Below are positions 8,397 to 25,815 of a stretch of DNA of 51,310 nt, one piece after another. The position numbers and the translations under genes are program-made. Location of the stretch: contig CATABD010000009.1 in assembly GCA_949494735.1 (NCBI GenBank), forward strand, positions 1 to 51,310, in the 5' to 3' direction. Source of the DNA: an uncultured Oscillospiraceae bacterium. Its GTDB lineage: Bacteria; Bacillota; Clostridia; Oscillospirales; Oscillospiraceae. Numbering within the stretch: position 1 is the stretch's first letter; each line of letters opens with the position of its first letter. The notes beneath the pieces were generated by a model. That model ran no database searches. It was not told the DNA's origin and worked only from the letters and a program-made list of their open reading frames with translations.

Positions 8397-10064
8397 TTAC
8401 GCCGCCTCCTTTTCCATGGCCGTCAGGCTGTTCAAAATATCCTTCAAATCGGGCGGGAGCTTTCCCATCTCGTCCAGGCGTTTCAGCACCTTGACGTATT
8501 CAATGTGATAGCGGAGGGTAATGACCAGATCATCCTTGGCTTTCACCCGAATGGACTGGACCAGAGCGATCACCGCCCGCCGGTCCAGGGTGGTCATGGC
8601 GGAGAACTCCTTGAAGTGCTGGGTCCACCGCAGGCGGGAACTGCTGTTGTTCGTCACCAGCTCCATCTCGGCCCGCAGACGGTCAATGGCCTCCTGCGCC
8701 TGCTCCGCCCGCTCGGTGTAGAGGTTCTTCAAATCCTGATAGTCCTTTTTACTGATAAGGTTGGCGATAAAATTCTCATACAGCGTGGCCTTGAACTGCC
8801 GGGCTTCTTCCAGCTTCACCTCATTGTCCGCAATCTGCGCTTTGAACTTGGCGATTTCCTCCTGGTTGATCTGTTCCTCGCTGATACTGTCCAAAACCTC
8901 ATCCAGCGAGACAATGTGTCGGATATGAGCCTGGAGACTGACCAGAACACAGTCGATCAGATCAGCCTCTTTCAGCATGACCGGATGAGTGCAGCCCTTT
9001 TTCTTCCCGGTGGGACAATGATAATAGACGTACTTTCTGCCCTTGACCGTGTTGGTTTTCCGGGTCATGCGTCCGCCGCAGCAGCCACATACCAGCAGGC
9101 CGGAGAACAGATAGACCGCCTCGCCGTCCGGGGCTGTCCGGGTGTCCAGACTGGAAATCTTCTGAACAAGGTCAAAATCCCGCTTCTGGATGATCGGTTC
9201 ATGTGCGTTTTCAATGCGGACCCATTCCTCGGCTGGCTTGTGGATGATATTCTTCAGCTTGTGGTTATGGGTTTCCTGCCGCCCCTGCAACAGAACGCCG
9301 GTATAGGTTTCCTCCTGCAAGATGCGGATCACCGCACGGGCGGACCACTTGGCGTCCGGCACATCCGCGAAGCCGCCGGTGGGGTGGGGCAGGCCCCGGC
9401 TGTCCTTGTAGGCCATGGGGGAGAGGACACCCAGCCGGTTCAATTCCTCCGCGATATGCTTGGCGCTGGCCCCGTCAATGCGGCGGCGGTAAATGTCCCG
9501 CACCACACGGGCAGGGTATTCATCAATAATGAGATGATTCTTGTTTTCCGGGTCCTTCCGGTAGCCATAGATGGGGCAGGAGCCTACATAGTCCCCGTTC
9601 TGCCGCTTGGTCAGCAGGGCGCTCCGGGTTTTCACAGAAATATCGTGGGAATAGGTGTCGTTCAGCAGATTTTTCAGCGTGATATGGAGATCATCGCCGT
9701 TCTGCTCGTTGGCGGTGTCGATGCCGTCATTGACGGAGATAAACCGAACGCCGTAGGTGGGAAAGACCTGCCGGAGATAGCGGCCAGTCTCAATGTACTC
9801 CCGGCCCAGGCGGGACAAGTCCTTGACGATCACGCAGTTGATCTTGCCGGAAACAATGTTGTTCATCATTTCCTGGAACGCCGGACGGTCGAACAGAACA
9901 CCGCTGTAACCGTCGTCCACCCGCTCCGATACCAGCTCGATGTCCGGGTGAGCGGCTACGAAGTCCTCGATGAGCTTCTTCTGGTTGGCAATACTGTCAC
10001 TCTCTACGCTGTGGTCGGCAGAGTAGGACAGGCGCAGGTATGCGTCGCCGCGATATTTAGGCAT
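8397..10064 (-). CDS. Large serine recombinase 3
   Basis: A 555-residue large serine recombinase, the first gene of the operon. The Ser nucleophile is in 'AYLRLSYSAD' and the Arg box is 'LSRLGREY'. The zinc ribbon has 'LVCGCCGGRM' and 'YHCPTGKKKGC', and a coiled coil precedes the C-terminus. I chose the Met at 10064 because AAAGGAG lies 10 nt upstream; the frame opens eight codons earlier. A strong promoter at 10151-10179 serves the operon. Its position at one end of a long conjugative element is where integration genes are expected. Confidence 0.9.
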   Translation of the reverse strand: MPKYRGDAYLRLSYSADHSVESDSIANQKKLIEDFVAAHPDIELVSERVDDGYSGVLFDRPAFQEMMNNIVSGKINCVIVKDLSRLGREYIETGRYLRQVFPTYGVRFISVNDGIDTANEQNGDDLHITLKNLLNDTYSHDISVKTRSALLTKRQNGDYVGSCPIYGYRKDPENKNHLIIDEYPARVVRDIYRRRIDGASAKHIAEELNRLGVLSPMAYKDSRGLPHPTGGFADVPDAKWSARAVIRILQEETYTGVLLQGRQETHNHKLKNIIHKPAEEWVRIENAHEPIIQKRDFDLVQKISSLDTRTAPDGEAVYLFSGLLVCGCCGGRMTRKTNTVKGRKYVYYHCPTGKKKGCTHPVMLKEADLIDCVLVSLQAHIRHIVSLDEVLDSISEEQINQEEIAKFKAQIADNEVKLEEARQFKATLYENFIANLISKKDYQDLKNLYTERAEQAQEAIDRLRAEMELVTNNSSSRLRWTQHFKEFSAMTTLDRRAVIALVQSIRVKAKDDLVITLRYHIEYVKVLKRLDEMGKLPPDLKDILNSLTAMEKEAA

Positions 10065-10150
10065 AAAAAAGTCACTCCTTTGCATCACGGACTTACCCCG
10101 CGATGCAGCGAGTGGCTGGTTTATCCTATTGAATTCTTTTTCCAGTCACA

Positions 10151-10476: not shown

Positions 10477-11328
10477 TCAGCCCTTGAAGCGGTAGGGGAG
10501 CTTGCGGCCCCCGCGCTGCTGGCTGTTGTATTTGCCCAGGATCACCCGGGCGAACCGCAGAGCGGCCTTGTTGGTGGAGAAGTCGGCTTTGCCCCGACGC
10601 AGAATCTCCTCCGGGTCCACGGCGGACAGCCACTTGATGAACACCTCATCGTCCAGCTCCGTCTCGTAGGTTTTGAGGAACAGGGCCATGCCGGAGAGGA
10701 AGGACGCCTTCACCGAGCCAGGAGAGCCGTGCCACGTTTGGGCGGTGAGCTCCAGCATCCGGGAGAAGGCCGCGCCGCCCAGCAGACGGTAGGCATTGAT
10801 GACGGCGCGGGTAGCCTCCACCTCAAAGGGTTCCCCGGTGGGCTTGTCCAGCGCCCACACAAAGCCCGCGCCCTCCAGCAGACGCTTGATCTCGATGATC
10901 TCCGCGTCCGCCCCGGATTCCACCAGAGCTTTGGTGGCGTGGGACAGCCGCAGATGGCCTTTGGCCCGGTCCAGTTTGTAATACAGTTCCGCCTCCTGCT
11001 CGTAGGTCAGGCCGTGGTAAACCCGGCACAGAGCGGTCACATCCTTGCCGCCGTTTTTCTTGCGCATGGCGCACACCCGGTGCTGGCCGTCCACCAGATT
11101 GTAGCGGCCCTCCCGGTGGCTGACCACCAGCGGGGTGAGCAGGCGAGGGTCCCACTCCCGGACCAGCTTGTCCACCGTCCGATCCAGCACGGGGCGCTGG
11201 TAGGGCTGGCCGGAGTACAGCTCCCCGGTGGAGAGCAGCTCCTCCACGCCCTGAAGATCGGCGTTCATGCCGGTGAGCACGGTCTGCCTCGGATTGGCAG
11301 GGGCGCGTTTTTTCTTGCGGTAGCTCAT
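10477..11328 (-). CDS. DUF6551-like, ParB-related protein
   Basis: A 283-residue protein with an N-terminal ParB/sulfiredoxin-like fold. 'YQRPVLDRTVDKLVREWDPRLLTPLVVS' and 'YNLVDGQHRVCAM' correspond to the nucleotide-binding GxxR box of ParB-type domains. The rest is helical and unlike partition ParB. I remember this family as DUF6551; it sits in conjugative elements next to a second ParB-like gene. The ATG overlaps the upstream stop (ATGA), so the two are co-translated. It may be a CTP- or DNA-binding regulator. No nuclease motif is evident. Confidence 0.7.
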   Translation of the reverse strand: MSYRKKKRAPANPRQTVLTGMNADLQGVEELLSTGELYSGQPYQRPVLDRTVDKLVREWDPRLLTPLVVSHREGRYNLVDGQHRVCAMRKKNGGKDVTALCRVYHGLTYEQEAELYYKLDRAKGHLRLSHATKALVESGADAEIIEIKRLLEGAGFVWALDKPTGEPFEVEATRAVINAYRLLGGAAFSRMLELTAQTWHGSPGSVKASFLSGMALFLKTYETELDDEVFIKWLSAVDPEEILRRGKADFSTNKAALRFARVILGKYNSQQRGGRKLPYRFKG

Positions 11329-12299
11329 TTTTGCGACATCCTTTCCATTTTGTGAAATAAACCGTCTAAAGCGGTGTGAACGGACTGTATCTCGTCACGG
11401 AGTTGTCCCAACTGTTCCCGCGTCAGCGCCGGAAAAACTGCCTCGTGCTCCGGGGTGGCGTAGTTAGCGACCTCCGCGCAAATCTTTTGCAGGAAAAAGG
11501 AAAACGTCATAAGGAAGGTGTCCGGGGTGCGCCTGCGGTCTTTGTCCGGGTTCTTCAGATCGTCCACGGAATCTTTAATCGTGGGATAGCAGATCTCTGC
11601 TGCCTGGGATGTAGGGGCTGGGGACTCTGGCTGTTCCGGGTTCGTTGGTTCTGCTGGAGTTGGATGATATTCGTCCACTGAACGGATATCGCCCGCCGCC
11701 AGTTGGGTAGCGGCATCCTCCTGCTGCTCCGGGGGCAGACGGGAGATCTTCAGTGCATTTTTGAAGCCAATGTCATTGCGCTTAACAATTCCCTTGGCCT
11801 CTGGCGTCAAGTTTTTCGCAATTTGAACCTTACGCTCGACAGTACGCGGTGTAACGCCAATTTTTTCAGCTGTATCTTGAGCGAAGGATTTTGTTTCTAA
11901 AACCGACCCCGTGTCGGTTTTAGAAGTCTGTCCATTGCGTTTGCCGCGCCGTGTTTCTGGATGGAGCATTTCATAGATTTCTTTGCGACGGGCCAACTGT
12001 TCCCCCTCATCTACGCAGTCAAAATCTTGGCGGACAAGATTTTCGTCGATTTCCGCCAATTCTGCCAGCAAACCGCTTAAATTACTGACCGTACACTTGA
12101 TCTCCGTCCAACCCAGCCGCTTTGCCGCCTCCAGCCGGTGCAACCCGGCAATTAGGGTGTACTCCTGGTCCACGGTGATGGGGTTCAGTAGCCCCACCTT
12201 GGAAATGCTGTCCGCCAGCTTTTGCACGGCGTCCTGGTCGGCCTCCCGCCGCCCAGCGTTGACGTTGATTTGGTAAATCGGAATCTGCGTTTTAGTCAC
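11325..12299 (-). CDS. ParB/RepB/Spo0J-family protein
   Basis: A protein of about 324 residues. The ParB N-terminal domain is clear: 'VQKLADSISKVGLLNPITVD', then 'YTLIAGLHRLEAAKRLGW', then 'IDENLVRQDFD'. An HTH follows (AEKIGVTPRTVERKVQIAKNL). After a Pro-rich linker (about 220-250) the C-terminus is helical. The start is uncertain. GTG at 12299 fits where the family begins but abuts GGGGAG with no spacing; the frame stays open to ATG at 12389 through sequence that looks non-coding and hairpin-rich. The likely job is DNA segregation or regulation during the element's extrachromosomal phase, with the two ParB-like partners downstream. Confidence 0.75.
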   Translation of the reverse strand: MTKTQIPIYQINVNAGRREADQDAVQKLADSISKVGLLNPITVDQEYTLIAGLHRLEAAKRLGWTEIKCTVSNLSGLLAELAEIDENLVRQDFDCVDEGEQLARRKEIYEMLHPETRRGKRNGQTSKTDTGSVLETKSFAQDTAEKIGVTPRTVERKVQIAKNLTPEAKGIVKRNDIGFKNALKISRLPPEQQEDAATQLAAGDIRSVDEYHPTPAEPTNPEQPESPAPTSQAAEICYPTIKDSVDDLKNPDKDRRRTPDTFLMTFSFFLQKICAEVANYATPEHEAVFPALTREQLGQLRDEIQSVHTALDGLFHKMERMSQK

Positions 12300-12814
12300 C
12301 TCCCCGGACCGTTTTGTTATTTGCCCTCGCCGGATGAAACACCCAACACCACAGGAAAGCCCTGCGGTGCCGGGTCTTGCATCCCGCAAGTGGGGGGAGG
12401 GCCGCGCCGGTCATGTTAGCGCCCTCATACTGTGAGGAAATTGACCGGCGCGGGTGCCTCTCCCATGCCCTATATGTGAACGTGTGCCGTATTATCGGGC
12501 GGCATGACCGCCCTGCTGCTCCCCCCGGCACGGGAATATGTAAGCCCGCCTTTGGCGTGGCGGCGCGATACCGGCAGACGGTGGCGGCAGTTGACTAAGC
12601 TGCCCAGGCCGTTCCCCCAGTACCTCCCTTTTACCCTGCGATACGGGTGTTTGCGGTGCGTCCCGCGTCTGCGGCGTTACCAACGCCGGACAGCCGCCCA
12701 GGTGTCGCTCGTGCCTTTGATGCTATCGTTTTGACGGGCAGGGAACGAGGATCCACCCCCTTTCGTTCATCCCCGGCCCGCAGGCAGTCTTGGCGATTGG
12801 ATGGCTGATGCAGG
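12300..12814 (-). other. Structured intergenic region upstream of parB
   Basis: About 515 bp without a supported gene. It contains successive stem-loops: CACCACAGG with CCCTGCGGTG near 12350-12371, CTTGC with GCAAG near 12377-12391, and the longer pair at 12403-12452. It may hold the promoter and leader of the ParB-like operon or binding sites for its product. No consensus -35/-10 pair was found. Confidence 0.4.
12403..12452. repeat. 11-bp GC-rich inverted repeat
   Basis: The arms are CGCGCCGGTCA (12403-12413) and TGACCGGCGCG (12442-12452), perfect over 11 bp. It shares the CGCGCCGG core and a long loop with the inverted repeat ahead of the excisionase at 3136-3197. Confidence 0.5.
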
Positions 12815-12901
12815 ATGCAGCACTTACATATTGATTATGAACAGGAGCTTGTCCCGTTGTTTGTCAAGGTGCGTGAACAATATGTTCAGGGAGAGAATTG
12901 A
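12815..12901 (+). CDS. Possible 28-residue small protein
   Basis: A short plus-strand frame (start MQHLHIDYEQ, end REQYVQGEN). Its amino-acid make-up looks like a real soluble protein rather than random sequence, with many charged and aromatic residues. An in-frame stop lies shortly upstream, and the ribosome site is weak. It overlaps the 3' end of the convergent DeoR-like gene by 16 bp. It could be the remnant of a longer gene. Low confidence. Confidence 0.25.
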   Translation: MQHLHIDYEQELVPLFVKVREQYVQGEN

Positions 12902-13218
12902 AGGAGAATGCTGTTAAGCGTGTCCAGGTCATCGCCCGCAAGCTGGCCGCGCAGCCTTTTGAGCAGGGCGGTCTGCTTGGGAGAAAGGACATTACGAGCT
13001 GGGATCCGGCGGTTTAGATAAAATCCATCCGCAACCCTGACGCCGCCCCCATAACGACCACAAACTGTTTCAATCGGGTAAGAGCACATGAGTGCCGCGA
13101 TGTCTCGCCGAATCGTCATTTTGGAAACGTTAAATTCATGCGCCAGGTTGTCGTATGTATCGTGCCGCCTGCGGCACAACACTTCAAGGATTTCCTGACG
13201 GCGTTCAACAGGGTTCAT
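12886..13218 (-). CDS. DeoR-like winged HTH regulator
   Basis: A 110-residue protein. A DeoR-type N-terminal HTH occupies about residues 1-65: 'RRQEILEVLCRRRHDTYDNLAHEFNVSKMTIRRDI'. The effector-binding sugar-phosphate domain of true DeoR proteins is missing, so this is a short, ligand-free regulator of the type seen in conjugative elements. ATG overlaps the stop of a small upstream frame (ATGA), and a G-rich ribosome site precedes it. It probably regulates the ParB-like/recombinase side or the flagellin cassette. A structured leader RNA lies upstream. Confidence 0.75.
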   Translation of the reverse strand: MNPVERRQEILEVLCRRRHDTYDNLAHEFNVSKMTIRRDIAALMCSYPIETVCGRYGGGVRVADGFYLNRRIPARNVLSPKQTALLKRLRGQLAGDDLDTLNSILLQFSP

Positions 13219-13759: not shown

Positions 13760-15022
13760 TTAGCCACTAAGCAAAATTGCCATATGCGCTAACGTGGAGC
13801 TGTCATGCTGAAATAGTTCCTCCTGGAAACCGTTGAAGCGTACGCTGTCATGCAGTGTGGCCCGACTTGCCACGACAATCATGTGGAACAGCCGCTCCTT
13901 TGTTTGGTCCTCCTTACAGCCCAGGACCGATACAAAGCGGTAAAAGCTGTACAGATTACACAGGGAAACATAGCCTTCCCACAGCTTCTCTTTGCTATCC
14001 AAAGCAGGGAAGCCCATATGCAACGCCGCAGCCACCATCAAATTTTCAAAGAAATATTCACGGTCCGAAAAAGCAGCCTGGAATTTCTCCAGTGCGTCCT
14101 CATAGGCTTTTTTCGAGAAGCTTGTCATAAGTTGGATATTCCGTTCCGACACGCCATCCACAGTTGATGCCAATGTAAACTTACGTTTAACATTCACTGC
14201 CTTGTAAAGCTCAGTGGGCCACCCCATTTGTCCTTTGGAAATTGCGTCCAACACCTGTAAGTTCTGCATGAGATACATATCCCGGTTCCCTGGGATATTC
14301 GCTGTCATATCCTTGATTGTGTCCACATCAGTCTGCGCCGTCACCTGCTTTGTCCAAACATCTGGGTCAAAAATGTCCCAGTTCTCCTTCTGTAGCCGTT
14401 GAAGGACTACGCCCAGATAGAGCATACGCTCGGTTAGCGATAATGCACGGTTTTGTAGGATGTCGATGAATAACGACCGAATAGGTTCAAAACAGATCAG
14501 CAGGTTATTACCTCGAGGAATATCTGCTGTTGCTTGCTCCGCTGAGGACAGGGGATCCTCCACAAATCCCACACCCTCTGGCAAATCCCAAAGCTGCTGA
14601 AGCACACCCTCGCAGGACGGAGAGAGGGAATACTCCTTAGCGGCGGGGGTGTAACCGACCCTTCTCGGATAGGTTCTGCATACCTCAGGCAGGGCTTTCT
14701 CCCCACACTCCAGCTGGAGACGGCACAGGCCTTCTTTGGTGTGGAATGCGCAGCGTCCCGAATCGGTGATATGGAACTCAGCATACATCCCGTCATGCTC
14801 CCGCTTTCTAAGACGGCGCATCCCTTGAGATACCAACGCTTGAAGCTTTTCATTTTGCTCTACAGCTCTCTTAACCGCAAGATAGTCCTTTTTGCTGAAT
14901 TCAATTTTCCAGCCGTCATCACAGCAGTTATCCTGACAAGCACCCATCAGGCAGCGGAAGTTTTTATAGAAGATAGGGATCAGTGCGGATCGGATAGGTA
15001 GCTTGATTTTCTCATCAGCCAT
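13760..15022 (-). CDS. fliB: Flagellin lysine-N-methylase
   Basis: A 420-residue protein matching the FliB family, which methylates lysine side chains of flagellin. The N-terminal half holds the family's cysteine clusters: C24, C29, C33 and C34 in 'CLMGACQDNCC', further Cys in 'GRCAFHTKEGLC', and 'EVCRTYPRR'. The Cys pattern suggests a metal or Fe-S site. The C-terminal half is helical. GTGAGG precedes the ATG. It lies 88 bp after the flagellin gene on the same strand, with only a hairpin between, so the flagellin is the natural substrate. Methylation changes surface hydrophobicity and antigenicity in other bacteria. Here it is part of a cassette inside a mobile element. Confidence 0.88.
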   Translation of the reverse strand: MADEKIKLPIRSALIPIFYKNFRCLMGACQDNCCDDGWKIEFSKKDYLAVKRAVEQNEKLQALVSQGMRRLRKREHDGMYAEFHITDSGRCAFHTKEGLCRLQLECGEKALPEVCRTYPRRVGYTPAAKEYSLSPSCEGVLQQLWDLPEGVGFVEDPLSSAEQATADIPRGNNLLICFEPIRSLFIDILQNRALSLTERMLYLGVVLQRLQKENWDIFDPDVWTKQVTAQTDVDTIKDMTANIPGNRDMYLMQNLQVLDAISKGQMGWPTELYKAVNVKRKFTLASTVDGVSERNIQLMTSFSKKAYEDALEKFQAAFSDREYFFENLMVAAALHMGFPALDSKEKLWEGYVSLCNLYSFYRFVSVLGCKEDQTKERLFHMIVVASRATLHDSVRFNGFQEELFQHDSSTLAHMAILLSG

Positions 15023-15047
15023 AATATAACCTCACGATAGTTGAAAT

Positions 15048-15073
15048 GGGGGACGAGCCGAAGCCCGCCCCCC
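15048..15073 (-). terminator. Hairpin between flagellin and fliB
   Basis: On the minus strand, GGGGG plus CGGGC pair with GCTCG plus CCCCC around a TTCG tetraloop. There is one G-U pair and one mismatch. No T-run follows, so it is more likely a leaky attenuator or an mRNA-end stabiliser that lowers fliB expression relative to flagellin than a full terminator. Confidence 0.5.
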
Positions 15074-15110
15074 AAGGTTAAGAAGTCTATGCGATTTTGC
15101 CAAGAGCAGT

Positions 15111-17888
15111 TTACTGCAACAGCTGCAGTACGCCTTGGGGAACCTGGTTGGCCTGGGCCAGCATGGCCTGGGCGGACTGGATCAGGATGTTGTTCTTGGT
15201 GTACTCCATCATCTCGGCGGCAACGTCGGTGTCGCGGATGGTGGACTCGGCATCCTGGATGTTCTCGGTCATCACGGACAGGTTGTTGATGGTGTGATCC
15301 AGGCGGTTCTGGGTGGCACCCAGAGTGCCGCGAACATCGGAAACGTAGTTGATGGCGGACTTAATCACATCAATGGCCTTACCGGCGCTGTCCTGATCAG
15401 CAATGGAAATGCCGTCAATGCCCATGGCATTGGTGTGCATATCGCTCAGTTTCACTTTCAGCTGGTTGTAGCTGTCAGAGGTATCGCCAATCTGGAGAAC
15501 CAGGTTGTTCTCCCAGGTGACGGTGGGATCGGCGATGGTGCCGTTCTCAGCCTCAGCGCCCCGCAGTGTGACCTTGCCATTGTTATCCACGGTGGCGGTG
15601 CCGTTCTTCACCACGTTGGCGAAAGCATCGCCCAGTTCCTTGGCGGAAGCCTTGGAGGGGTTGTCAACCTCGATGGCGACAGCGCCCTCGTTGCTCACCT
15701 CGCCGCCCTTCTTGACGAACTCGTAGGTGTTGCCGCCGAACTCCAGGATGGAGCCTTCCTTGACCGCCTTGGGGTCGAAGGTAAAGGAAGCGGTCTTGAT
15801 CTTGTCGCCATAGGGCGTGGTCACGGACAGGGCCTTCTGGTCGCTGCCGATCTTGTCGCTGCTGACGGTGACGGTGCCGCCGTTGCTGGTGGCGGTGTAG
15901 CTGCCCTTCTCGTTGGCGCTGATGGCGTCGGCAATTGCCTTGGCGACAGCCTTGCTGTCGGTGGGGTCGGCCACCACGATGGCGGTGTTGTTGCGGTTGG
16001 AGGTGTCGCGGGCATCCTTGACGATCTCATAGGTGTGGTCGCCCACCTTGATGGCCGCGCCGTAGTCCAGCTTCTCGTCCAGGGTGAACGTGGACTCGGC
16101 GGCGGTCTGGGCATCGGCCAGGTTCCGGGTCAGCGGGGCATCCACAGCCTTCAGGGGAACGGCTACCAGGCTGTCAATCGTGCTGGCATTGCCGTTGCCC
16201 GCCGTGCCGTCGTACTTGGATTCGATGGTGAGCGCACCGGCGTTTGCCGTAACGGTAAATTCGCCCTTGGCGCCGAACAAATCCTCGCCGGTCATCGTGC
16301 TGACATTCCCGTCCGCATCCGTGACCTTGACGGTCACATCCTTGGAGCTAAAAGCATCCTTCAGATTGTTGACGGTATTGGTGACAGCGGTGGCAACCGT
16401 CGCGTTCTTGTCAACCTCAAAATCTTTACCGGCCTCCAGCACCACCTCGAAGGTGCGGCCGTCGGCCAGGGTGCCGGTGGCCTTGACTTTATCGCCGGCG
16501 GTGTAGTTCACAGTGTTCACTGCGGCGGCAACTGCCTTGTCCTTCGCGGTAGTCGAATTCTTGGCAGCGGTCGTATTGGTATCGGCAGTCGCGTTGAAGG
16601 TGGTCTTGGCCCCGTTGCGGTTGATGGTGAAGGAATTTGCCTTGGCAATGGCGGTGCTGCCCGCATTTTTAGCTACAACGTTAATGGAGCCGTAGGCTGC
16701 GGCATCACCCTTGGCGTTTTTGTTGGCCGTAAAGGTAAAGAGGTCGCTCACCTTGATCTGGCTCTCGTCAATGCCGGTGGTATTACCATCGTCATTGAAG
16801 TAGGCCTTGTTCAGCGCGTCCACAATGGCCTTGGTGGCGGTCTCGGCATCGGCGTTGGCCATCTCCTGGGTGGCGGTGATCTCGGCGGTCAGGGTTGTAC
16901 CGCGGCCGGTGGTGAACTCGAAGGATAGTTTGTCGCCCACCTCAATGTTGCCGGAAGCTCCGGCGTTAACACCGCCGAGGACTTCCAGAACGCCCTTCCA
17001 AGCTGTGCCAGCAGTTTCAGCGCCGGCAGTGTCCGTAACAGCGCCCAAGTAAGAGGTGCTGTTATCAGTGACTGTGGCCGCAGTGATCTGCGCAGCCTCG
17101 ACGCCCTCGGCCTTTGCGGTCATGGTGATCTTGCTGCCCTCGGCCTTGATATCGAAGTAAGCGCCAAAGTCTGCGGTCATCTTGTTCACCAGGTCGGTGG
17201 CCTGCGCATCAGCCGTATCACCGTAGAAGTTGGCGGTGCCCGCGGCAGTGGTCAAGGTATAGGTCTTGGCAGCGCCGCCAATGGTATTGCCATCCTTATC
17301 CACGCCGGTAATGGAAATGGTGTCGCCAAAGCTGAACTTCTCGTTCAGGTCGATGACGAACTCGCCCTTGGAACCATTGCCGTTGTTCACGGAATCCACG
17401 GTGATACCCGCAGTGGTGGAGATGGAATCGTACTCCACGGGCAGTGTGGACAGGCGACCGGAGCCGCTCATGCCGTCCAGCAGCTTGATGCCGTTGAAGT
17501 TGGCGCTGTCTGCGATGCGGTTGATCTCCTCTTTCAGCTGGTTCATTTCTTTCTGCAGCTGATAGCGGTCGGTGTCATTGTCATAAGTGCCGTTGGCGGA
17601 CTGGGTGGCCAGCTCGACCATGCGGTTGAGCATATCGTGAACCTCGGTCAGGGCGCCCTCGGCGGTCTGCACCAGGCTGATGCCGTCCTTGGCGTTCTTC
17701 TGAGCGGTCTCCAGGCCGGTGATCTGGGCGCGCATCTTCTCGCTGATGGCGAGGCCGGCGGCGTCGTCGCCCGCGCGGTTGATCTTGTAGCCGCTGGACA
17801 GCTTCTCCAGGTTCTTCTTCATTGCGGAGACGTTATTGGTGTAGTTGCGGTACGCCCCCATGGCCATGATGTTATGTTGGATCCTCAT
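15111..17888 (-). CDS. fliC: Giant flagellin
   Basis: A 925-residue flagellin. The N-terminal D0/D1 (about 1-145, starting [15 protein letters not shown]) and C-terminal D1/D0 (about 795-925, ending [11 protein letters not shown]) are typical. Between them lies an unusually long, roughly 650-residue variable region rich in Ala, Thr, Asp and Lys, with repeated beta-rich modules resembling Flagellin_IN units (for example around 'YEIVKDARD' and 'YEFVKKGGE'). Ordinary flagellins are 270-500 residues. R89 and L93 in '[10 protein letters not shown]' and E114 correspond to the TLR5-contacting residues of Salmonella FliC. The many surface Lys are potential FliB substrates. The start has AGGAGG in a hairpin loop (see 17889-17907). 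csrA-like and TnpB-like genes lie upstream on the same strand. Confidence 0.95.
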
Positions 17889-17907
17889 TTTATAGTCCTC
17901 CTATAAA
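17889..17907 (-). promoter_or_regulatory. CsrA-type hairpin over the flagellin Shine-Dalgarno
   Basis: The mRNA reads TTTATAG (17907-17901), GAGGA (17900-17896), CTATAAA (17895-17889), then ATG. This is a perfect 7-bp stem whose 5-nt loop displays GGA and also contains the Shine-Dalgarno. That is the classical form of a CsrA binding site, like the one that represses hag in Bacillus. A second GGAGGA (17932-17927) lies about 30 nt upstream, so two sites could be bridged by a CsrA dimer. Confidence 0.75.
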
Positions 17908-18059
17908 TAAAATGATTGCCGGGGTTTCCTCCACTGTGCTTTCACCTGTTCCATGGATTCGACACAATAAAGGGTGCGCTTTGCCTGTTTTTCCGTGGCC
18001 TTTGGAACATTGGCTCGGCGCTGTATTTCAACCAGCTCGTCAGCCGGAAGAAACCGATT

Positions 18060-18434
18060 TTATTTTGGAGCATAAATCGTCTCATTGGACGCGAACTCGG
18101 GTGGGAACAAAAAGTCCAGCTGGCGGCGCAGATCCTTCACATGATCGTCCCCGCCGTCCATTTGAGCGAGCAGCCGCCGCATGGCGATCAGCGCCTGGGT
18201 CTTGTTCCGATTCCAGGACGGGCCCGATCCCGACCAGCGTGAACGCGCCGTTTCTATCACGCATTCCGGGCGCTCCGCCCCGGCGCGTTCCAGCAGCTCG
18301 CCCCGCATGACAGGGACTTCCCTGGGGGCTTCGATCATCAGCTTGCAGCGGTTGCCGGAAACATCATTCAGCTGAACGATCACATCGCCGCCAATGGTCA
18401 TGTATTCTCCTGTTTTGAGTTGAAGGAACAGCAT
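18060..18434 (-). CDS. csrA: CsrA-like RNA-binding regulator with C-terminal extension
   Basis: A 124-residue protein. Residues 1-55 align without gaps to CsrA: MLFLQLKTGEYMTIGGD, then 'IEAPREVPVMRGELLER'. The RNA-contacting residues Leu4 and Arg44 of E. coli CsrA are both conserved at the same positions. CsrA dimers bind GGA in hairpin loops and, in Firmicutes, repress flagellin translation, antagonised by FliW. Normal CsrA has 60-75 residues; the extra 65 residues here (from about 58) are charged and helical and have no match I know. AAAGGAG precedes the ATG. The gene lies 171 bp ahead of the flagellin, whose leader carries a matching site, so autogenous cassette control is likely. No FliW is encoded in the window. 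Confidence 0.85.
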   Translation of the reverse strand: MLFLQLKTGEYMTIGGDVIVQLNDVSGNRCKLMIEAPREVPVMRGELLERAGAERPECVIETARSRWSGSGPSWNRNKTQALIAMRRLLAQMDGGDDHVKDLRRQLDFLFPPEFASNETIYAPK

Positions 18435-18454
18435 GGCAAACTCCTTTCGCCTGC

Positions 18455-18654
18455 TTTTTCATCGTCATAATGTTTTGGACGCCCCGGAGGGCTTCAGCCG
18501 CGATCCCAGAAGAAAGACGGCCTCTCGTTTCCCACTCAACGGTTTCGGAAACGCTGAGTGAAGCAGAACAGGGTGGTTCCGTTTCACTCAACGCTCCCAG
18601 CCGGAATCATGGGCTTTCACCGGCGTCCCGACCGGCAAACTGGGGTGTTATGCG
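18455..18654 (-). ncRNA. Putative guide RNA of the TnpB-like protein
   Basis: The RNA of TnpB proteins overlaps and follows the 3' end of the gene. Here the 220 bp between the TnpB-like stop and csrA has no gene but is highly structured. 'GCCGGTGAAAGCCC' resembles omega-RNA scaffolds. A stem pairs 18583-18593 with 18552-18562 through a G-U that exists only on the minus strand. The block ends in a short GCCC...GGGGC hairpin (18492-18481). By analogy the guide would start just after it, around 18479, with the sequence AAAACATTATGACGAT within it. The boundaries are inference. Confidence 0.5.
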
Positions 18655-19839
18655 TCAGGCGCTTTCGCGCCATTCCTGATAACCGAAATACTGGTCAAGA
18701 CCCTGGGCCTTGACGTTTTTCGCGGCGTTGACCTCCCGATTATGTACCGTGCCGCACTTGGGGCATCGCCAGCTGCGGTGCCTGTAGCTCACCTCATCGT
18801 CCCGCACCAGCCCGCAGACGGCGCAGGTACGGGTGGTGGGCGTATACCGATCCACCACGATCAGCGGTTTGCCCTGCCGCGCCAGCTTATAGCGCAGGCA
18901 CTCCCGGAAGGTTCCGAACCCGGCCTCCAGCGCGTTCCCGCGCTTCACGAGCTGAGAAATCTCCGACATGGAATCGCCCCTCACGCACACGGCGTCCCAA
19001 GCGTTGGCTATCCGCCGGGATTCCTTGTGGATGAAGTCGCGCCGCTGGTTGGCAATGTGCTCATGAAGCTCACGGTACTTTTGCACTGCTTCCTGATAGT
19101 TTTGGGAACCAGGCTGCATTCGGTTAAGCTGCCGCTGGACCTTCGCCAGCTTCTCCTGGGACTGTTTCAACCAATGGGGAGCATCGGCCATCGCGCCGTT
19201 GTCAGCTACATAGAAATGGGGCATGGAGTATTTCAATCCCAGCGTGGTCTCCGCCATTGGAATAACAGTCTCCGGCGCTTTCACGCAGCACTCATACAAA
19301 ATGTAGCAGTAATATTTACCCGAACGGGTCTTCTCCACAGTGATTCGCCTGAGCTTCCAGCCGTTTCGCGGACGGCGGGGAAATTTGGCCCGGACGATCC
19401 CCGCCTTGGTCATGCGGATGCCGTCTTTCGTGATATAAATGGTGGGGCCGGATTCAAAAACATGATTGCAGGCCGTAAAGGAATCCCGGTCGGTTTTTTT
19501 CCTTTTGAAGTTGGGATAGCCGAAATGCGAGGGGTCTTTGAAGAACACCCGGAACGCCTGGGAGAGCTTGTTATGCTCCTGGATGAGCGCTTGGTTATCG
19601 ACCTCTTTCAAGAACGGCGCTTCTTTTTTGTACTTGGCAGGCGTAGGGATAAAGTGTTTGTCGGTTTCCAGATAGAACCGCTGCTGGTCGGCCAGCATAT
19701 GGTTCCAGATATAACGGCAGCAACCGAAGGTGTTCTCAAACAGCTCCGCCTGGACCTCGGTGGGATAGAGCCGCGCTTTGATGGTGTTGTACTGGACAAC
19801 TTGCCCATCACCACATGGGATTTTTGATTTTCGCGGCAC
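18655..19839 (-). CDS. tldR: Nuclease-dead TnpB homologue (TldR-like RNA-guided repressor)
   Basis: A 394-residue TnpB-family protein of full length. The N-terminal wedge/REC part (about 14-190) and the C-terminal zinc ribbon (C339, C342, C359, C362) are intact. The RuvC active site is not. The box usually reading 'LGLDYSM' is 'LGLKYSM' (K203), the 'VCVED' box is 'VCVRG' (R287), and 'HDRDVNAA' is 'HNREVNAA' (E369). All three acidic residues are changed while the surrounding sequence is kept, which argues for selected loss of cleavage with retained RNA-guided binding. TnpB-like nuclease-dead repressors linked to flagellin genes are known, and I recall csrA-linked clostridial ones as well. GTG start after a G-rich ribosome site, 24 bp after the preceding gene, followed by a putative guide RNA and csrA. 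Confidence 0.85.
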   Translation of the reverse strand: MPRKSKIPCGDGQVVQYNTIKARLYPTEVQAELFENTFGCCRYIWNHMLADQQRFYLETDKHFIPTPAKYKKEAPFLKEVDNQALIQEHNKLSQAFRVFFKDPSHFGYPNFKRKKTDRDSFTACNHVFESGPTIYITKDGIRMTKAGIVRAKFPRRPRNGWKLRRITVEKTRSGKYYCYILYECCVKAPETVIPMAETTLGLKYSMPHFYVADNGAMADAPHWLKQSQEKLAKVQRQLNRMQPGSQNYQEAVQKYRELHEHIANQRRDFIHKESRRIANAWDAVCVRGDSMSEISQLVKRGNALEAGFGTFRECLRYKLARQGKPLIVVDRYTPTTRTCAVCGLVRDDEVSYRHRSWRCPKCGTVHNREVNAAKNVKAQGLDQYFGYQEWRESA

Positions 19840-19863
19840 GGCGATCCACCCCCCTTTGCTATG

Positions 19864-20322
19864 TCAAACAGCCGCATTCCTGTCCTGCTTTTTCTTGCGC
19901 ATCCTGTAGAACCCTTTCCTTGAAAGGCCACAGGCCGCAGCCGCGTCTGTGGCTGTCATATCACCGTTCAGCCACGCCTCGTAGCATTCGTCAAAATTGT
20001 CGGGTAGTGGTTTCGGATCCGCGCCAAACCGCACACCACGGGCGCGCGCCGCCGCGATACCCTCGGCCTGCCGCTGGCAGCGGAATTCCTGGCGTTCCCG
20101 ATCCGAAACGGAGAGGAACAAATCGGAAACGAAGACACCCAGCAGCTCCTTGCTCTGATTCAGCTCCAACGTGGAAAGGCCGGACGCGATTACCTTCGCA
20201 AGCTCCCGCAGTTGGGTTTGAAGCTCCTCCCGCGTCCCAGTGGGATCAAATTGAACCCTGGCAGCGGCAAGCTGGATGACCCGCTCCTCCCCGGTGCGCT
20301 GTGCTTTTGCTTTTCTTGGCAA
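19864..20322 (-). CDS. Resolvase-like DNA-binding protein lacking the catalytic domain
   Basis: A 152-residue protein. The C-terminal half (about 77-150) is like the end of a Hin/resolvase-type serine recombinase: 'RERQEFRCQRQAEGIAAARARGVRFGADP', then an HTH (ATDAAAACGLSRKGFYRM). The first 75 residues are not a resolvase domain; the catalytic Ser and Arg boxes are missing. It therefore probably binds DNA without recombining it. TTG start with AAGGGGTG upstream. It is the first gene of the run leading to the TnpB-like protein, csrA, flagellin and fliB, and may regulate that operon. Both proteins that would make an IS607-type transposon have thus lost their catalytic parts here. A remnant of a decayed transposase is the alternative. 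Confidence 0.65.
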   Translation of the reverse strand: MPRKAKAQRTGEERVIQLAAARVQFDPTGTREELQTQLRELAKVIASGLSTLELNQSKELLGVFVSDLFLSVSDRERQEFRCQRQAEGIAAARARGVRFGADPKPLPDNFDECYEAWLNGDMTATDAAAACGLSRKGFYRMRKKKQDRNAAV

Positions 20323-20396: not shown

Positions 20397-20428
20397 TTTG
20401 TTACAAAAACTATGATTTTTGTAACAAA
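20397..20428. repeat. Palindrome P1
   Basis: The arms TTTGTTACAAAAA (20397-20409) and TTTTTGTAACAAA (20416-20428) flank a 6-nt centre. It shares the outer 9-bp TTGTTACAA/TTGTAACAA arms and the 30-bp core span with P2. Confidence 0.6.
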
Positions 20429-20460
20429 AGGGCGAATCCAGAATTTTTTCCGAATAAGGC

Positions 20461-20490
20461 TTAATTCCGCAAAAAAGGTGCCGATATAAT
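20461..20490 (+). promoter_or_regulatory. SigD/sigma-28-like promoter motif
   Basis: TTAA (20461-20464), 15 nt and GCCGATAT (20480-20487) fit the flagellar sigma consensus TAAA-N15-GCCGATAT. A sigma-A TATAAT overlaps at 20485-20490. It faces right, away from the flagellin cassette, and no plus-strand gene follows. It may be fortuitous or may make an antisense RNA. Confidence 0.3.
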
Positions 20491-20523
20491 GGGTGTAAGC
20501 CATCAGGAAGCCTGCTGTCAGCG

Positions 20524-20553
20524 TTGTTACAAGGGGTATACTCTTTGTAACAA
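20524..20553. repeat. Palindrome P2
   Basis: TTGTTACAA (20524-20532) and TTGTAACAA (20545-20553) around 12 nt. It has the same arms and spacing as P1, 126 bp away. Confidence 0.6.
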
Positions 20554-20777: not shown

Positions 20778-21383
20778 TTATCCGATGGGGGGAACCTCCT
20801 TCGCCCGACGCAGGAAGGTTTGATAGGAAACCCCCAGCTCCCTGGCAGCGTCCCTGGACGAAATGCCGCCCTCCTGCCACAGCTGCGCAAACAAAAGAAA
20901 ATTCTCCGGGAGTTCCAACCGCTCACGTCCAAACCGGACGCCCCGCTCCTTTGCCGCCGCGATGCCCTCCGCCTGCCGCTGGCGGATGCTTTCCCGCTCC
21001 GTCTGGGCCACATAGCTGAGAAGCTGGAGCACGATGTCCGAAATCAGCGTCCCGGTGAGATCCCGGCCCTGCCGGGTGTCCAGCAGGGGCATATCCAGCA
21101 CCACAATGGCCGCGTCCTGCTTTTTGGTAATGAACGCCCACTGTTCCAAAATCTCCGTGTAATTCCGTCCCAGCCGGTCGATGCTTTTGACCACCAGCAC
21201 ATCCCCCGCCCGCAGCCCGTCCACTAACTGCTGATAGAGCGGCCGCTTGAAATCGCGCCCGGACTGCTTTTCGATGATGATGTTTTCATCCTCCACGCCA
21301 AACTCCCGCATGGCCGCAAGCTGACGGGCCTCGTTCTGCACCTGTGTGGATACCCGCACATAGCCGTAAGTATTGCGCTCCAT
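20778..21383 (-). CDS. Serine resolvase/invertase
   Basis: A 201-residue serine recombinase of the small resolvase/invertase type. The nucleophile is in 'YGYVRVSTQVQNEARQ' and the 'SIDRLGRNY' box is intact. The catalytic domain ends with 'RESIRQRQAEGIAAAKERGVRFGRE', and a short C-terminal HTH follows (SSRDAARELGVSYQTFLRRAKEV). It is closely similar in its C-terminal half to the catalytically headless protein at 19864-20322, which probably arose from a relative. It resolves or inverts DNA between short palindromic sites; palindromes P1 and P2 beside it are candidate sites. ATG start, own terminator. Widespread on clostridial mobile elements. Confidence 0.85.
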   Translation of the reverse strand: MERNTYGYVRVSTQVQNEARQLAAMREFGVEDENIIIEKQSGRDFKRPLYQQLVDGLRAGDVLVVKSIDRLGRNYTEILEQWAFITKKQDAAIVVLDMPLLDTRQGRDLTGTLISDIVLQLLSYVAQTERESIRQRQAEGIAAAKERGVRFGRERLELPENFLLFAQLWQEGGISSRDAARELGVSYQTFLRRAKEVPPIG

Positions 21384-21835: not shown

Positions 21836-22681
21836 TTACAGCAACGAATAGTCCGCGATCATCATGCTGGTGCTGTGATCCAGTTCTGGATAGGCCACCC
21901 GCATAATTGCGCAGGCGATCATCAGCGAGGCCCTTCTTACCACAGCTTGAATATTGGAAACAGTCAAAAACTCTTGATTGGACGCCTCCATCTCCGGCAC
22001 TAAGTCCTTGACAGAGATTACAGCCGGGATTCCGATAGAAATGACCGGCACACCAATCGTGGATTGCGATAATTCCTCTCCGCTGTAATAAATCCGTATT
22101 CCAGCGTCCGTCAACTGTATACTGCGGCAGAGCCGGGAATATTCCGTGCAATTTGTGGAATCGACCAGCAGCACACAGGCCGCGTCTACTGCGGATGATG
22201 CGCTGGCGATTAAGGCGCTTCCGCTGATGTTTGTTTCGCCGCTCACACCTGGAGCCAGCACCGTCAGTTTTTCAAACACAGACTTCATCGGAACGTGGGT
22301 AAAAATCCTTTTTGCGGTTTCTGGCCCAATGGAATCAGCCGGGAAATCCCGGTTCCCTATTCCGCAGACCAGCAGCGTTTTTCCCTTGTAAGGAGACAGG
22401 TAGCGGTCCAGCTCCTCGGTCAAACAGGCGCAGACATTTTCCAGATCGTCATAGTCGCCCAGCGGCCCCGTCTGAAGGGTGGAATATTGCCCAACAGCCT
22501 TGCTCAAAAGACCCGCCATATCTTCATCCTTGATGTTCACGCGCTGGACAGGAATACCGTGGGCTTCGGTTTCGATGAAATCCACATATTCCGCGATCCA
22601 GTCACCGTTTTCTGACAGCGACCCTTTTTTGAACAGCCCTTCCAATGCCTTGCCAATTTCAGGCGGCAGATTTGCAGCCAT
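21836..22681 (-). CDS. gpr: GPR-family spore protease-like endopeptidase
   Basis: A 281-residue protein with the GPR signature. 'VCGIGNRDFPADSIGPETAKRI' matches the 'GLGN...PDALGP' box, 'LAPGVSGETNIS' matches 'IAPGVMGQTG', and there follow 'SIQLTDAGIRI' and 'TIGVPVISIGIPAVI'. GPR degrades small acid-soluble proteins on spore germination and is made as a zymogen. The fit covers the whole length. GGGGG lies upstream of the ATG. It sits in the cargo part of a mobile element beside a SLOG-fold gene, not in the usual chromosomal position near holA/rpsT. It could therefore be a second, mobile GPR with a different substrate; sequence divergence in the boxes supports that. Active-site residues cannot be confirmed by eye. 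Confidence 0.8.
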   Translation of the reverse strand: MAANLPPEIGKALEGLFKKGSLSENGDWIAEYVDFIETEAHGIPVQRVNIKDEDMAGLLSKAVGQYSTLQTGPLGDYDDLENVCACLTEELDRYLSPYKGKTLLVCGIGNRDFPADSIGPETAKRIFTHVPMKSVFEKLTVLAPGVSGETNISGSALIASASSAVDAACVLLVDSTNCTEYSRLCRSIQLTDAGIRIYYSGEELSQSTIGVPVISIGIPAVISVKDLVPEMEASNQEFLTVSNIQAVVRRASLMIACAIMRVAYPELDHSTSMMIADYSLL

Positions 22682-22701: not shown

Positions 22702-23235
22702 TCAGCTTAGATTTCTACTGTTAGCAAGCGTCGGGGTAAGTGGGTCGATCATAATAATCTCCCGCCCCGCCTTTTGCGCGTAGCGCACAGTCGCCGCCGT
22801 TCCTCCGCGCCGCTCCCCATTATACACCGCCAGCAGGATTCCGGCCTGATCCACCAAACGCCGGTTGCGTGCCAGCATACATCCATCATAGTATTTCCGG
22901 CTCACATAGTCCACAAAATCGGCCCGCGCTACAATCATGTGATACCGCTCCCGCGCTGAATCGCTCCATCTGTCCGCCTGCCCCTCGCAGGGCAGGACAC
23001 AGTGGAGGTTCAGCGCGGGGTTTTTTCTGCGCAGGTCAAGAACGATCTGCGCACAGTAGGTGTCGGTTCCTTCCGCCATGCCGCTGAAAAAATCCGTTAC
23101 ACCGACTTCCGCCAGTTTTGATATCTGCCCGGTCAGTTCCTCTTTCAGCGCCACACACCGGCTGTCCGTTTCGTCATATCTCCATGGGAATTTGCTGGGG
23201 CGGTGGCCGGTGAACGCGCAAGCGGTGTTCATCAT
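22702..23235 (-). CDS. SLOG-domain (DUF1273/YpsA-like) protein
   Basis: A 177-residue Rossmann-like protein of the DUF1273 type in the SLOG superfamily: 'CAFTGHRPSKFPWRYDE', 'FFSGMAEGTDTYCA', 'HCVLPCEGQADRWSD' and 'GILLAVYNGERRGGTAATVRYA'. SLOG proteins bind or make nucleotide-derived ligands, and some act as sensors in phage defence. AAGGAGA precedes the Met at 23235; the open frame continues upstream into the promoter. It is transcribed divergently from the XRE regulator from overlapping promoters, so it is probably its target. The stop is 20 bp from the GPR-type gene, so the two may form one operon. Substrate unknown. Confidence 0.8.
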   Translation of the reverse strand: MMNTACAFTGHRPSKFPWRYDETDSRCVALKEELTGQISKLAEVGVTDFFSGMAEGTDTYCAQIVLDLRRKNPALNLHCVLPCEGQADRWSDSARERYHMIVARADFVDYVSRKYYDGCMLARNRRLVDQAGILLAVYNGERRGGTAATVRYAQKAGREIIMIDPLTPTLANSRNLS

Positions 23236-23248
23236 AATTTGTGTCTCC

Positions 23249-23298
23249 TTGATACATATAATTATATGTATTATACATGAATGAATGGGTGAAATCAA
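23249..23298. promoter_or_regulatory. Divergent promoters with a 20-bp palindromic operator
   Basis: The minus promoter is TTGATT (23298-23293), 17 nt, TATAAT (23275-23270), reading to the SLOG gene. The plus promoter is TTGATA (23249-23254), 17 nt, TATACA (23272-23277), reading to the XRE gene. The exact palindrome ATACATATAATTATATGTAT (23252-23271) fills the plus spacer and follows the minus -10. It is the likely operator of the XRE protein. Confidence 0.7.
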
Positions 23299-24330: not shown

Positions 24331-25734
24331 TCACCGCTCCGGCTTTTGTTCTCTATTCTGCTCTTGTTCCTCCAGCTCCAGGCCGAGGATTTTGTCCACG
24401 TTCTGCTTCGCTGTCTGATAAGCGATCATGTCCTGACGCGCCGTTCGGTACTCCTCGTATTCCCGCTGCTTCTCCGCCAGCAGCTCGGCGTACTCCTGGG
24501 AAAGCTGGGCCACTTTGGGGATGGGCTTGCCGCCCAGGGCGTCAAAGGCCCTTTTCGCAGCCTCATGCTGGGCGATCTCGGCCCCATGCTCCGCCAGGAA
24601 TTCCTTTTTATGGCGGGACTTCTTATAGGCAGCGTAGACCTCCCGCGTCTTGGAGTAATTGATGATATGGGTCTTTAACTGGGCGACATCGGCCATCCGC
24701 GCCTCTAACTGTTTGATGCGGCGGGAAGCGGCATTGAACCTGTCCCCGGCCTGCACCGCCCGTGCCGCCAGCTCATCATAATCGGTCAGGCCGTTGTCCA
24801 CCAGAAAATTCAGCGTCTTAGCGGCCTCTTTCAGATTAAATATTTTTGCCCAGTGCTCATACCCGGCACCCTTCCCAGCGGCCATCTTCGCTTGAATGTC
24901 GATAAGCAGATTGACCTTCCGGCCATCCCGCTGAAAGGGCTTCTTTGCCCCGGCAGGCCCCCCGCCCCGGACGGCGAAACGCTCCCGCAGGGCTTCCCTG
25001 GTATAATCGCTCCCCAGTTTGGAGGAGCGGGTGAAGCGGTCCCAGCCGGGGGCGCGGAAGGACAGCGTTTTTCCCTCCTTTACCTCATAGCCCTCGGCCC
25101 GCATTTTTGCCAGGAAATCCTCGTAGTCCCGGCTGTTGGGAAGCACCCGGTCAATGGCCTGCCGTAGCTGCTCCTTATGACTGGAGCCGTATTGAGCCGC
25201 CGCCAGTTCTTTCTGTTTCTTTGCGCTGGGCTTTGGATTTTCAATGACTGAATAGCCGTGGGACCTGCACAGATTGTCATTCAGCTCCCGCAGGATGAAA
25301 GCGGAATCCTTAACGTTCTGAAATTTGCCGTCACAGTTAAGATTGGTACTGTTAAACTCAATGTGGGTGTGAATGTGGGCCTTGTCCACATGGGTGGACA
25401 CCACAAATTGGTGCTGGCCTTTGGTGAATTTCATAGCCAGCTCGTAGCCAATGCGGTTGGCCTCCTCCGGGGTGATCTCGCCGGGTTTGAAGGACTGGAT
25501 GATGCGGTACATGAGTATGTCGTGAGCCGGGTCCTGTCTGCGCCCAGTGAGCTGGAAATAGAGCTTTTTGCTGGCCTCAAACTCCTCGGCGGCGGACTCC
25601 GGCAGACACATAAAGGAGGACACCAGCTCGCCGTCGATGGTTTTTTCCGCTTTTTGATCGTAGTCCAGGCGGTCCATCATGAACCGCCTGTGGTTGCGCA
25701 TGGTTTTGCGGGGGTATAGGCTGGAAATCGCCAC
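24331..25734 (-). CDS. MobP-type relaxase
   Basis: A 467-residue relaxase of the MOB-P kind. The N-terminal part has the Tyr in 'LDYDQKAEKTIDGELV', the 'IIQSFKPGEITPEEANRIGYELA' block, and the metal-binding three-His motif 'DKAHIHTHIEFNST' (H-x-H-x-H). It nicks the transfer origin and stays bound to the DNA 5' end. The C-terminal half is coiled coil. I chose GTG at 25734 (start MAISSLYP) because AAAGGAGG lies just upstream; the frame opens 27 codons earlier, within the promoter. The RHH protein diverging from it is the likely accessory factor. As this relaxase is short and a MobC and large conjugation genes are elsewhere, it may mobilise a sub-region, or the whole element may be a composite. 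Confidence 0.85.
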   Translation of the reverse strand: MAISSLYPRKTMRNHRRFMMDRLDYDQKAEKTIDGELVSSFMCLPESAAEEFEASKKLYFQLTGRRQDPAHDILMYRIIQSFKPGEITPEEANRIGYELAMKFTKGQHQFVVSTHVDKAHIHTHIEFNSTNLNCDGKFQNVKDSAFILRELNDNLCRSHGYSVIENPKPSAKKQKELAAAQYGSSHKEQLRQAIDRVLPNSRDYEDFLAKMRAEGYEVKEGKTLSFRAPGWDRFTRSSKLGSDYTREALRERFAVRGGGPAGAKKPFQRDGRKVNLLIDIQAKMAAGKGAGYEHWAKIFNLKEAAKTLNFLVDNGLTDYDELAARAVQAGDRFNAASRRIKQLEARMADVAQLKTHIINYSKTREVYAAYKKSRHKKEFLAEHGAEIAQHEAAKRAFDALGGKPIPKVAQLSQEYAELLAEKQREYEEYRTARQDMIAYQTAKQNVDKILGLELEEQEQNREQKPER

Positions 25735-25752
25735 TTGATCCTCCTTTCTTTC

Positions 25753-25815
25753 GACTATAAAAGTATAGTCTATTAGAACTATATCATTATAATATACTAA
25801 AATCATCTCTGTCAA
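25753..25815 (-). promoter_or_regulatory. Relaxase promoter and inverted repeat
   Basis: On the minus strand there is TTGACA (25815-25810), 18 nt and TATAAT (25791-25786). Downstream, GACTATA and TATAGTC (25753-25770) form a 7-bp inverted repeat around the transcription start, a likely site for the RHH protein or part of oriT. Confidence 0.65.

Follow-up and report, generated by a model that had tools for sequence, protein, structure and literature searches.

A probable phase-variable flagellin-exchange cassette carried by a conjugative-type element of an Oscillospiraceae-like gut bacterium

The 51,310-nucleotide stretch analyzed here (the window), which is the entire contig C9 of an assembly of 214 contigs that is 85% complete, codes for a flagellin, a flagellin methylase, a CsrA-like protein and a nuclease-dead TnpB homologue (TldR) amid partition and mobilization genes, and it raises the question of what a flagellar gene set is doing there. 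The core of such a set (hin, TldR, guide RNA, csrA, and fliC) is already known from the main text of PMC13418256; the conjugative-type vehicle, the accessory genes, and the evidence for recoding of the element's own flagellin are apparently new. We propose, with a probability of about 0.7, that the genes form a phase-variable flagellin-exchange cassette that is cargo of an integrative or conjugative-type element in an Oscillospiraceae-like gut bacterium. The features of the cassette are as follows.

20778..21383, minus strand: Hin-family serine invertase, full length, 201 amino acids (PF00239, E=3.8e-29)
20397..20553, no strand: promoter inverton with ~30-bp hix-like dyads at 20397-20428 and 20524-20553
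20461..20487, plus strand: presumed sigma-28 (FliA/SigD)-type promoter, TTAA-N15-GCCGATAT, inside the inverton
19864..20322, minus strand: headless invertase, 152 amino acids, with the Hin dimerization-helix region and DNA-binding domain and without the catalytic domain
18655..19839, minus strand: TldR, RuvC-dead TnpB homologue, 394 amino acids (Pfam HTH_OrfB, OrfB, TNB)
18478..18635, minus strand: putative guide-RNA scaffold with a long covarying stem (from covariation)
18460..18477, minus strand: putative guide region CAAAACATTATGACGATG, with the nine-base core AACATTATG at 18466-18474 (guide start predicted)
18060..18434, minus strand: CsrA-like protein, CsrA domain in residues 1-50 and a C-terminal extension of ~70 amino acids (PF02599, E=1e-15)
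17891..17905, minus strand: hairpin TATAG-GAGGA-CTATA over the fliC Shine-Dalgarno sequence, candidate CsrA site (predicted fold)
17859..17876, minus strand: guide-like site in the element's own flagellin, CATAACATCATGGCCATG
15111..17888, minus strand: element flagellin FliC, 925 amino acids (PF00669 Flagellin_N, PF00700 Flagellin_C)
13760..15022, minus strand: FliB flagellin lysine-N-methylase (NF038110, E=8.4e-54)

The reading frames of the cassette are intact and follow one another on the minus strand as Hin (21383-20778), headless invertase (20322-19864), TldR (19839-18655), guide RNA (18635-18460), CsrA-like protein, flagellin, and FliB. An earlier note on this DNA had described a same-strand unit of genes and an RNA from the headless protein to FliB (20,322 to 13,760), and every part that it named is present in that order. 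Its extent needs correction, as hin (20778-21383) and the inverton also belong to the unit and were missed, so that the unit starts ~1 kb further upstream. In the scheme that we envisage, Hin would flip a promoter segment of ~125 bp and, with the sigma-28 promoter facing the cassette, a single transcript would cover the headless invertase, TldR, guide RNA, CsrA-like protein, flagellin, and FliB. Directed by its guide RNA, TldR would attach to competing flagellin genes near their start, at codons for His-Asn-Ile-Met, and block their transcription, and the CsrA-like protein would restrain translation at Shine-Dalgarno hairpins. The element flagellin would escape TldR because its codons at the target are changed, FliB would methylate the new filament, and the headless invertase might bias or lock the switch, either by sitting on the recombination sites or by pairing with Hin.

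The TnpB homology of TldR is clear (218.6 bits against NCBIfam guided_TnpB, cut-off 100) and its four zinc-ribbon-type cysteines are retained, but the RuvC positions that are D/E/D in eight of eight distant TnpBs in the alignment are K203, R287, and E369. The loss is shared: among 72 aligned closer relatives (matches shorter than 330 residues left out and L077 dropped for an internal stop), the first position is never D, the second never E, and the third is D in four, with the full triad in none. The protein, which has a single match in its own genome, was called a nuclease-dead TnpB in the earlier note, and both halves of that description are borne out. TldR thus appears to be an RNA-guided repressor, with DNA binding and repression predicted from its sequence.

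A scan of genome contigs yielded 79 TldR relatives, and the core gene set recurs around them, which was one of the checks proposed for this locus. With neighbors counted downstream in the 59 relatives with more than 1.5 kb of sequence and upstream in the 67 with more than 1.3 kb, csrA is no more than 700 bp away in 45 of 59 and fliC no more than 1.5 kb away in 57 of 59, and 48 of 67 have a complete hin, on one strand or the other, at most 1.3 kb from tldR. In the window, csrA and fliC are both less than 3 kb from tldR, as in the csrA-associated TldR clade. The statement of the earlier note that csrA-linked TldRs occur in Clostridia proves right in light of PMC13418256, whose main text reports TldRs that are associated with csrA and accompanied by hin, an inversion of ~120 bp that contains a FliA-dependent promoter, and a guide RNA split by RNase III. 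TldR matches in the plasmid collection are all less than 60% identical, and the best-listed ones are annotated as TnpB.

The guide RNA predicted beside tldR in the earlier note is well supported by alignment of relatives. Across the region 18460-18635 (32 of 43 located guide-RNA regions, 211 columns), compensatory changes support 27 of the 44 predicted pairs, a long stem included, and the stems also pair in the window's own row; the boundary between scaffold and guide is placed by prediction. After a GT[T/C]C end, guide positions 4-12 read AATATTATG or AACATTATG in most relatives, and this core corresponds to the Asn-Ile-Met codons of flagellins. The guide had been supposed to aim at a host flagellin promoter; the match lies instead at the start of the coding sequence, within the flagellin open reading frame. 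Position 13 of the guide is mostly A in the relatives versus G in flagellins, a conserved mismatch that leaves the match imperfect beyond nine bases. A direct target search with k-mers of 18431-18720 against the flagellin-related contigs C122 and C64 returned only scattered matches of 11-13 bases, and the guide-target signal emerged only after the relatives were aligned. A one-mismatch pattern match at C6:39044 was considered as a second guide and set aside, having no scaffold around it. We also note that two distant TldR relatives, L097 and L100 (53-56% identical), carry a stretch that looks like a guide but is shifted in register; it reads CAACATAAT and then ATTAT or GTTAT, and resembles the start of some flagellins.

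Comparison of guides with flagellins across relatives points to recoding of the companion flagellin. Flagellin sites were searched at 48 of the 79 loci and in the window, so that 49 loci were examined for guides; 42 are compared here after removal of two in which no guide was found, two without an own site, and three without another flagellin. Over the nine bases, the guide fits another flagellin better than its own at 35 loci, ties at seven, and fits its own better at none; at 29 of the 42 loci another flagellin is matched perfectly, versus two for the own flagellin, where "other" flagellins include some beside a different TldR (at G400:C72, and probably also at L095 and L117) and so are not all TldR-free. 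Own sites read AACATCATG in 21 of 45 and AACATAATG in 8 of 45, and other flagellins read AATATTATG in 47 of 54. The isoleucine codon at the target is ATA in 12 of 45 linked flagellins; at other places in the N-terminal parts, counted in the 43 linked flagellins of sufficient length, 0 of 320 isoleucine codons are ATA. Since AAC and ATC are what codon bias by itself would produce, ATA is the informative codon. The loci share descent, so these counts and the P-values do not come from independent events. Twenty comparison stretches were chosen for having AATATTATG (one, L164, gave no match), and since their target codons are so by selection, the codon argument is drawn from the linked-flagellin counts. 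The recoding suggests a simple rule by which an RNA-guided repressor spares its companion flagellin.

It could be argued that something else, such as RNA processing or CsrA binding, accounts for the conservation of the guide-like stretch, and the A at position 13 in most relatives, versus the flagellin G, favors such an explanation. Guide and target co-vary, however: at L093 the guide is AATATTTTG and a flagellin in the genome likewise carries AATATTTTG, and in the reciprocal case, L044, the guide is AACATCATG, another flagellin carries AACATCATG, and the own flagellin carries AATATTATG. Published relatives, moreover, target fliC open reading frames according to the main text of PMC13418256, and we consider a role other than as a guide to be very improbable.

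The promoter switch is recognizable from its dyads; when the 455-bp region was shuffled by mononucleotides 2000 times, no shuffle had two of them. The promoter between them we take to be of the sigma-28 type from the general consensus. A strict sigma-28 pattern, which misses 55 of the 79 loci, finds the promoter directed toward tldR in 12 relatives and away from it in 12. Inversion itself is observed only in the sister pair L139 and L048, two copies of the second cassette-bearing backbone lineage described below. The sequences that flank the inverton are 95.7% identical on one side and 99.8% on the other, and the segment between the dyads is inverted, the promoter facing tldR in L139 and pointing the other way in L048.

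The headless protein has no Pfam or NCBIfam match and aligns with the C-terminal half of Hin, in keeping with the resolvase-like assignment made earlier; a distinct headless match is present in 7 of the 79 relatives (loci with less than 600 bp upstream could not show one), and also in L139 and on contig C122 of the same assembly. The C122 locus (L004 122-3732) is a second flagellin locus with hin, csrA, headless gene, and fliC and without TldR, and its sigma-28-type promoter is also directed away from its genes. The CsrA-like protein, as it had been called, matches PF02599 (57.8 bits, cut-off 27) and falls below both NCBIfam csrA equivalog cut-offs (40.5 versus 73 and 37.3 versus 70.1 bits); it is CsrA-like and not a CsrA equivalog. 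Matches to the C122 copy and to many relatives continue beyond the 50-residue domain into the extension. In 17 of 45 linked leaders, that of the window included, a predicted hairpin presents a GGA in its loop close to the start codon, versus 8% of shuffles that keep one GGA; for some of the leaders this is compatible with a CsrA site. CsrA RIP-seq (RNA immunoprecipitation sequencing) peaks in a fliC 5' untranslated region are described in the main text of PMC13418256.

The flagellin had been singled out as giant, and at 925 amino acids it is large, although not unique: lengths among 56 relatives, estimated from match ends, have a median of 589 amino acids, and nine are at least 926. FliB likewise is present as claimed, at the level of an NCBIfam equivalog (183.5 bits, cut-off 85), but its linkage to the cassette is uncommon, with matches in 3 of the 79 loci (L048, L053, and L114) and in L139, a locus from the viral collection. 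The host itself has FlgK/FlgL-like and FliW genes, and a second csrA lies beside FlgK/FlgL-like genes on contig C1.

The features of the element backbone around the cassette are listed here.

3602-4768: tyrosine recombinase
8397..10088, minus strand: large serine recombinase, probably the element integrase (PF00239, PF07508, PF13408)
10477..11328, minus strand: DUF6551 protein, backbone
11325..12389, minus strand: ParB-like protein, backbone (PF02195)
12886..13218, minus strand: DeoR-type helix-turn-helix protein at the downstream edge of the cargo slot (PF08220), in the same place in sibling elements
21836..22681, minus strand: germination-protease (Peptidase_A25)-like protein, backbone (PF03418)
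22702..23298, minus strand: YpsA/SLOG-family protein near the upstream edge of the cargo slot (PF06908)
24331..25815, minus strand: MobA/VirD2-type relaxase (PF03432, E=6.7e-29)
30638..30976, minus strand: MobC/NikA mobilization accessory protein (PF21983, PF05713)
30973..42381, minus strand: SNF2/helicase polyvalent protein, 3802 amino acids

On one side, the large serine recombinase, DUF6551 protein, ParB, and DeoR-type regulator lead up to the cassette; beyond it come the germination-protease-like and SLOG proteins, the relaxase, a Toprim protein, MobC/NikA, and the 3802-amino-acid SNF2 protein, followed by TopB, a DNA methyltransferase, and an M23/NlpC peptidase. The earlier placement of the cassette within a conjugative-type element, between ParB and relaxase, agrees with this content, MobC/NikA, SNF2, and TopB included. 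ParB homologues (E<=1e-40) occur in 10 of 400 family genomes, the window's own among them, and the SLOG protein is 65% and 71% (partial) identical in sibling elements. The window contains no tRNA that could serve as an attachment-site marker.

The sibling contig G284:C53 carries, in order, a TraG P-loop protein, M23, TopB, SNF2, MobC, Toprim protein, Mob, germination-protease-like, SLOG, cargo, and then DeoR, ParB, DUF6551, and recombinases, with the germination-protease-like and SLOG genes swapped relative to the window. Its cargo is a different one, a MmeI-type IIG restriction enzyme with an NYN protein and a regulator. In a second lineage, G402:C2, the cassette itself is in the slot (SLOG, hin, headless gene, tldR, csrA, fliC, fliB, DeoR, ParB, DUF6551, and recombinases), and ParB is 45-48% identical between the two cassette-bearing lineages. 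A third contig, G400:C13, from a genome with no ParB match, has a weak SNF2 match, MobC, and Mob and then hin-tldR-csrA-fliC. The cassette is therefore in the same slot of two divergent backbone lineages and beside mobilization genes in a third. After fliC in G400:C13 (L118 11908-19504), in the position of FliB in the window, are genes for an APS kinase-like protein, methyltransferases, a pyruvyl transferase, and an aminotransferase, with a possible role in modification of a surface structure. L139, which begins at hin and is ~96% identical to G402:C2, codes for a 463-amino-acid protein between fliC and fliB (6544-7935) with no Pfam family. Its source record, L139/L173 (IMG/VR 3300027374_000468), is filed as viral and looks like a conjugative-type element, with ParB, DUF6551, several large serine recombinases, and the flagellin cassette.

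A more conservative view is that this is an ordinary chromosomal csrA-TldR phase-variation locus beside an integrated element, whose mobility is irrelevant to its function. Within flanks of up to 7 kb, most of the 79 relatives have no backbone match; the window relaxase matches near L078, L096, and L115 and the SLOG protein near L048 and L083, and the published clade is termed chromosomally encoded in the main text of PMC13418256. Against this, backbone genes enclose the cassette, Mob/SLOG on one side and DeoR/ParB/recombinase on the other, and the slot holds other cargo in a sibling element and the cassette in a second lineage. We therefore regard a chance chromosomal neighborhood as unlikely and retain cargo of a conjugative-type element as the preferred reading.

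Several observations weigh against the proposed flagellin-exchange cassette on a conjugative-type element. A scan of window open reading frames, on a contig that stops at 51310, gave no type IV secretion ATPase or coupling protein; only the sibling contig G284:C53 has a TraG P-loop protein. G402:C2 and L139 are similar enough that they count as one lineage. FliB is uncommon among the relatives, and 28 of the 45 leaders are without a GGA hairpin in the minimum-energy fold. As assembled, the promoter points away from the cassette and is OFF. The window guide core AACATTATG has one mismatch in nine both to the own flagellin (AACATCATG) and to that of C122 (AATATTATG), a tie, with no discrimination seen in the window, and the mismatch to the own flagellin could pair as G-U. 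The best resident match to the guide, which the earlier note had proposed to look for near a chromosomal flagellin gene, is thus imperfect and no better than the element's own, which counts against a simple silencing claim for the present host. Besides the element's own flagellin, the assembly yielded one canonical flagellin, that of C122, and a third flagellin-family match, on C64, is partial; at 85% completeness, further resident flagellins may be missing.

The guide tie and the promoter directed away would also be expected of a decayed or silent passenger, with a guide that no longer fits the resident flagellin and a promoter that is OFF. The frames are intact, however, the guide-RNA stems pair in the window, and the 18-base guide is common to L039 and L115; OFF is also a normal state of a flip switch, as among the 24 relatives with a detectable promoter half face each way (12 and 12). 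Decay or silence is accordingly a rather poor account of the locus, and a working flagellin-exchange cassette remains the one that we prefer.

The guide may be better matched elsewhere. In the genus, the canonical flagellin site (exact pattern) is present in 20 of 42 genomes and TldR (E<=1e-80) in 12 of 42. AACATTATG occurs in five genomes (G443, G444, G448, G454, and G457), none with a TldR match, so that the window guide core is perfect to flagellins in five of the eight genus genomes with the site and without a TldR match, and in 0 of the 12 with TldR. These distributions suggest that the window guide suits hosts other than the present one. We tentatively raise, as an idea that we hold to be possible and still on the doubtful side, conjugative flagellar conversion, in which the guide would be tuned to the flagellins of prospective recipients and not to those of the present host, the element's own flagellin spared by recoding, and the switch locked by the headless Hin. 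This idea is weakened by the completeness of the G443 and G444 assemblies (only 64% and 78%) and by AACATTATG flagellins outside the genus in the TldR-bearing genomes G403, G411, and G436.

Inversion of a flagellin promoter by a Hin-type invertase, with a co-expressed repressor of the other flagellin, is the principle of the Salmonella Hin/FljBA system, the Hin part of which is cited in PMC13418256; the window differs in that its putative repressor is RNA-guided and its cassette is on a conjugative-type element. FliB (NF038110) is the equivalog-level match adjoining fliC, and that of the window travels with a TldR cassette on a conjugative-type element. The closest likeness is to the CsrA-associated TldR-fliC loci of Oscillibacter and Flavonifractor, which in the main text of PMC13418256 have hin upstream, an invertible FliA-type promoter, a RuvC-mutated TldR, a guide RNA downstream of tldR, csrA, and fliC, with targets within fliC open reading frames placed by RIP-seq and ChIP-seq (chromatin immunoprecipitation sequencing). 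Unlike those loci, the window has a conjugative-type backbone, FliB, and the headless invertase. The FR-phi prophages of Enterobacter (tldR-fliC) are similar in that a mobile element regulates host flagellin by TldR and supplies its own (PMC13418256, main text); they are phages, however, with guides that target the fliC promoter region (Fig. 1e legend of PMC13418256), and the passages on FR-phi in PMC13418256 mention no CsrA or Hin promoter switch. In the main text of PMC13418256, supplements and figures being outside this scope, there is no mention of conjugative, fliB, self-target, synonymous, or mobile genetic element. In the literature listings and the main text of PMC13418256, supplements and subscription papers being outside this scope, no such cassette is reported from a conjugative element, and neither linkage to FliB nor recoding of the own flagellin is reported; the headless invertase was not searched by name.

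RNA-guided flagellin replacement is documented in prophages and in loci that are termed chromosomal, as far as the main text of PMC13418256 goes. If a conjugative-type element bears it as well, together with a DNA flip switch and a flagellin methylase, a conjugative swap of a recipient's surface antigen would be a testable idea in common gut commensals.

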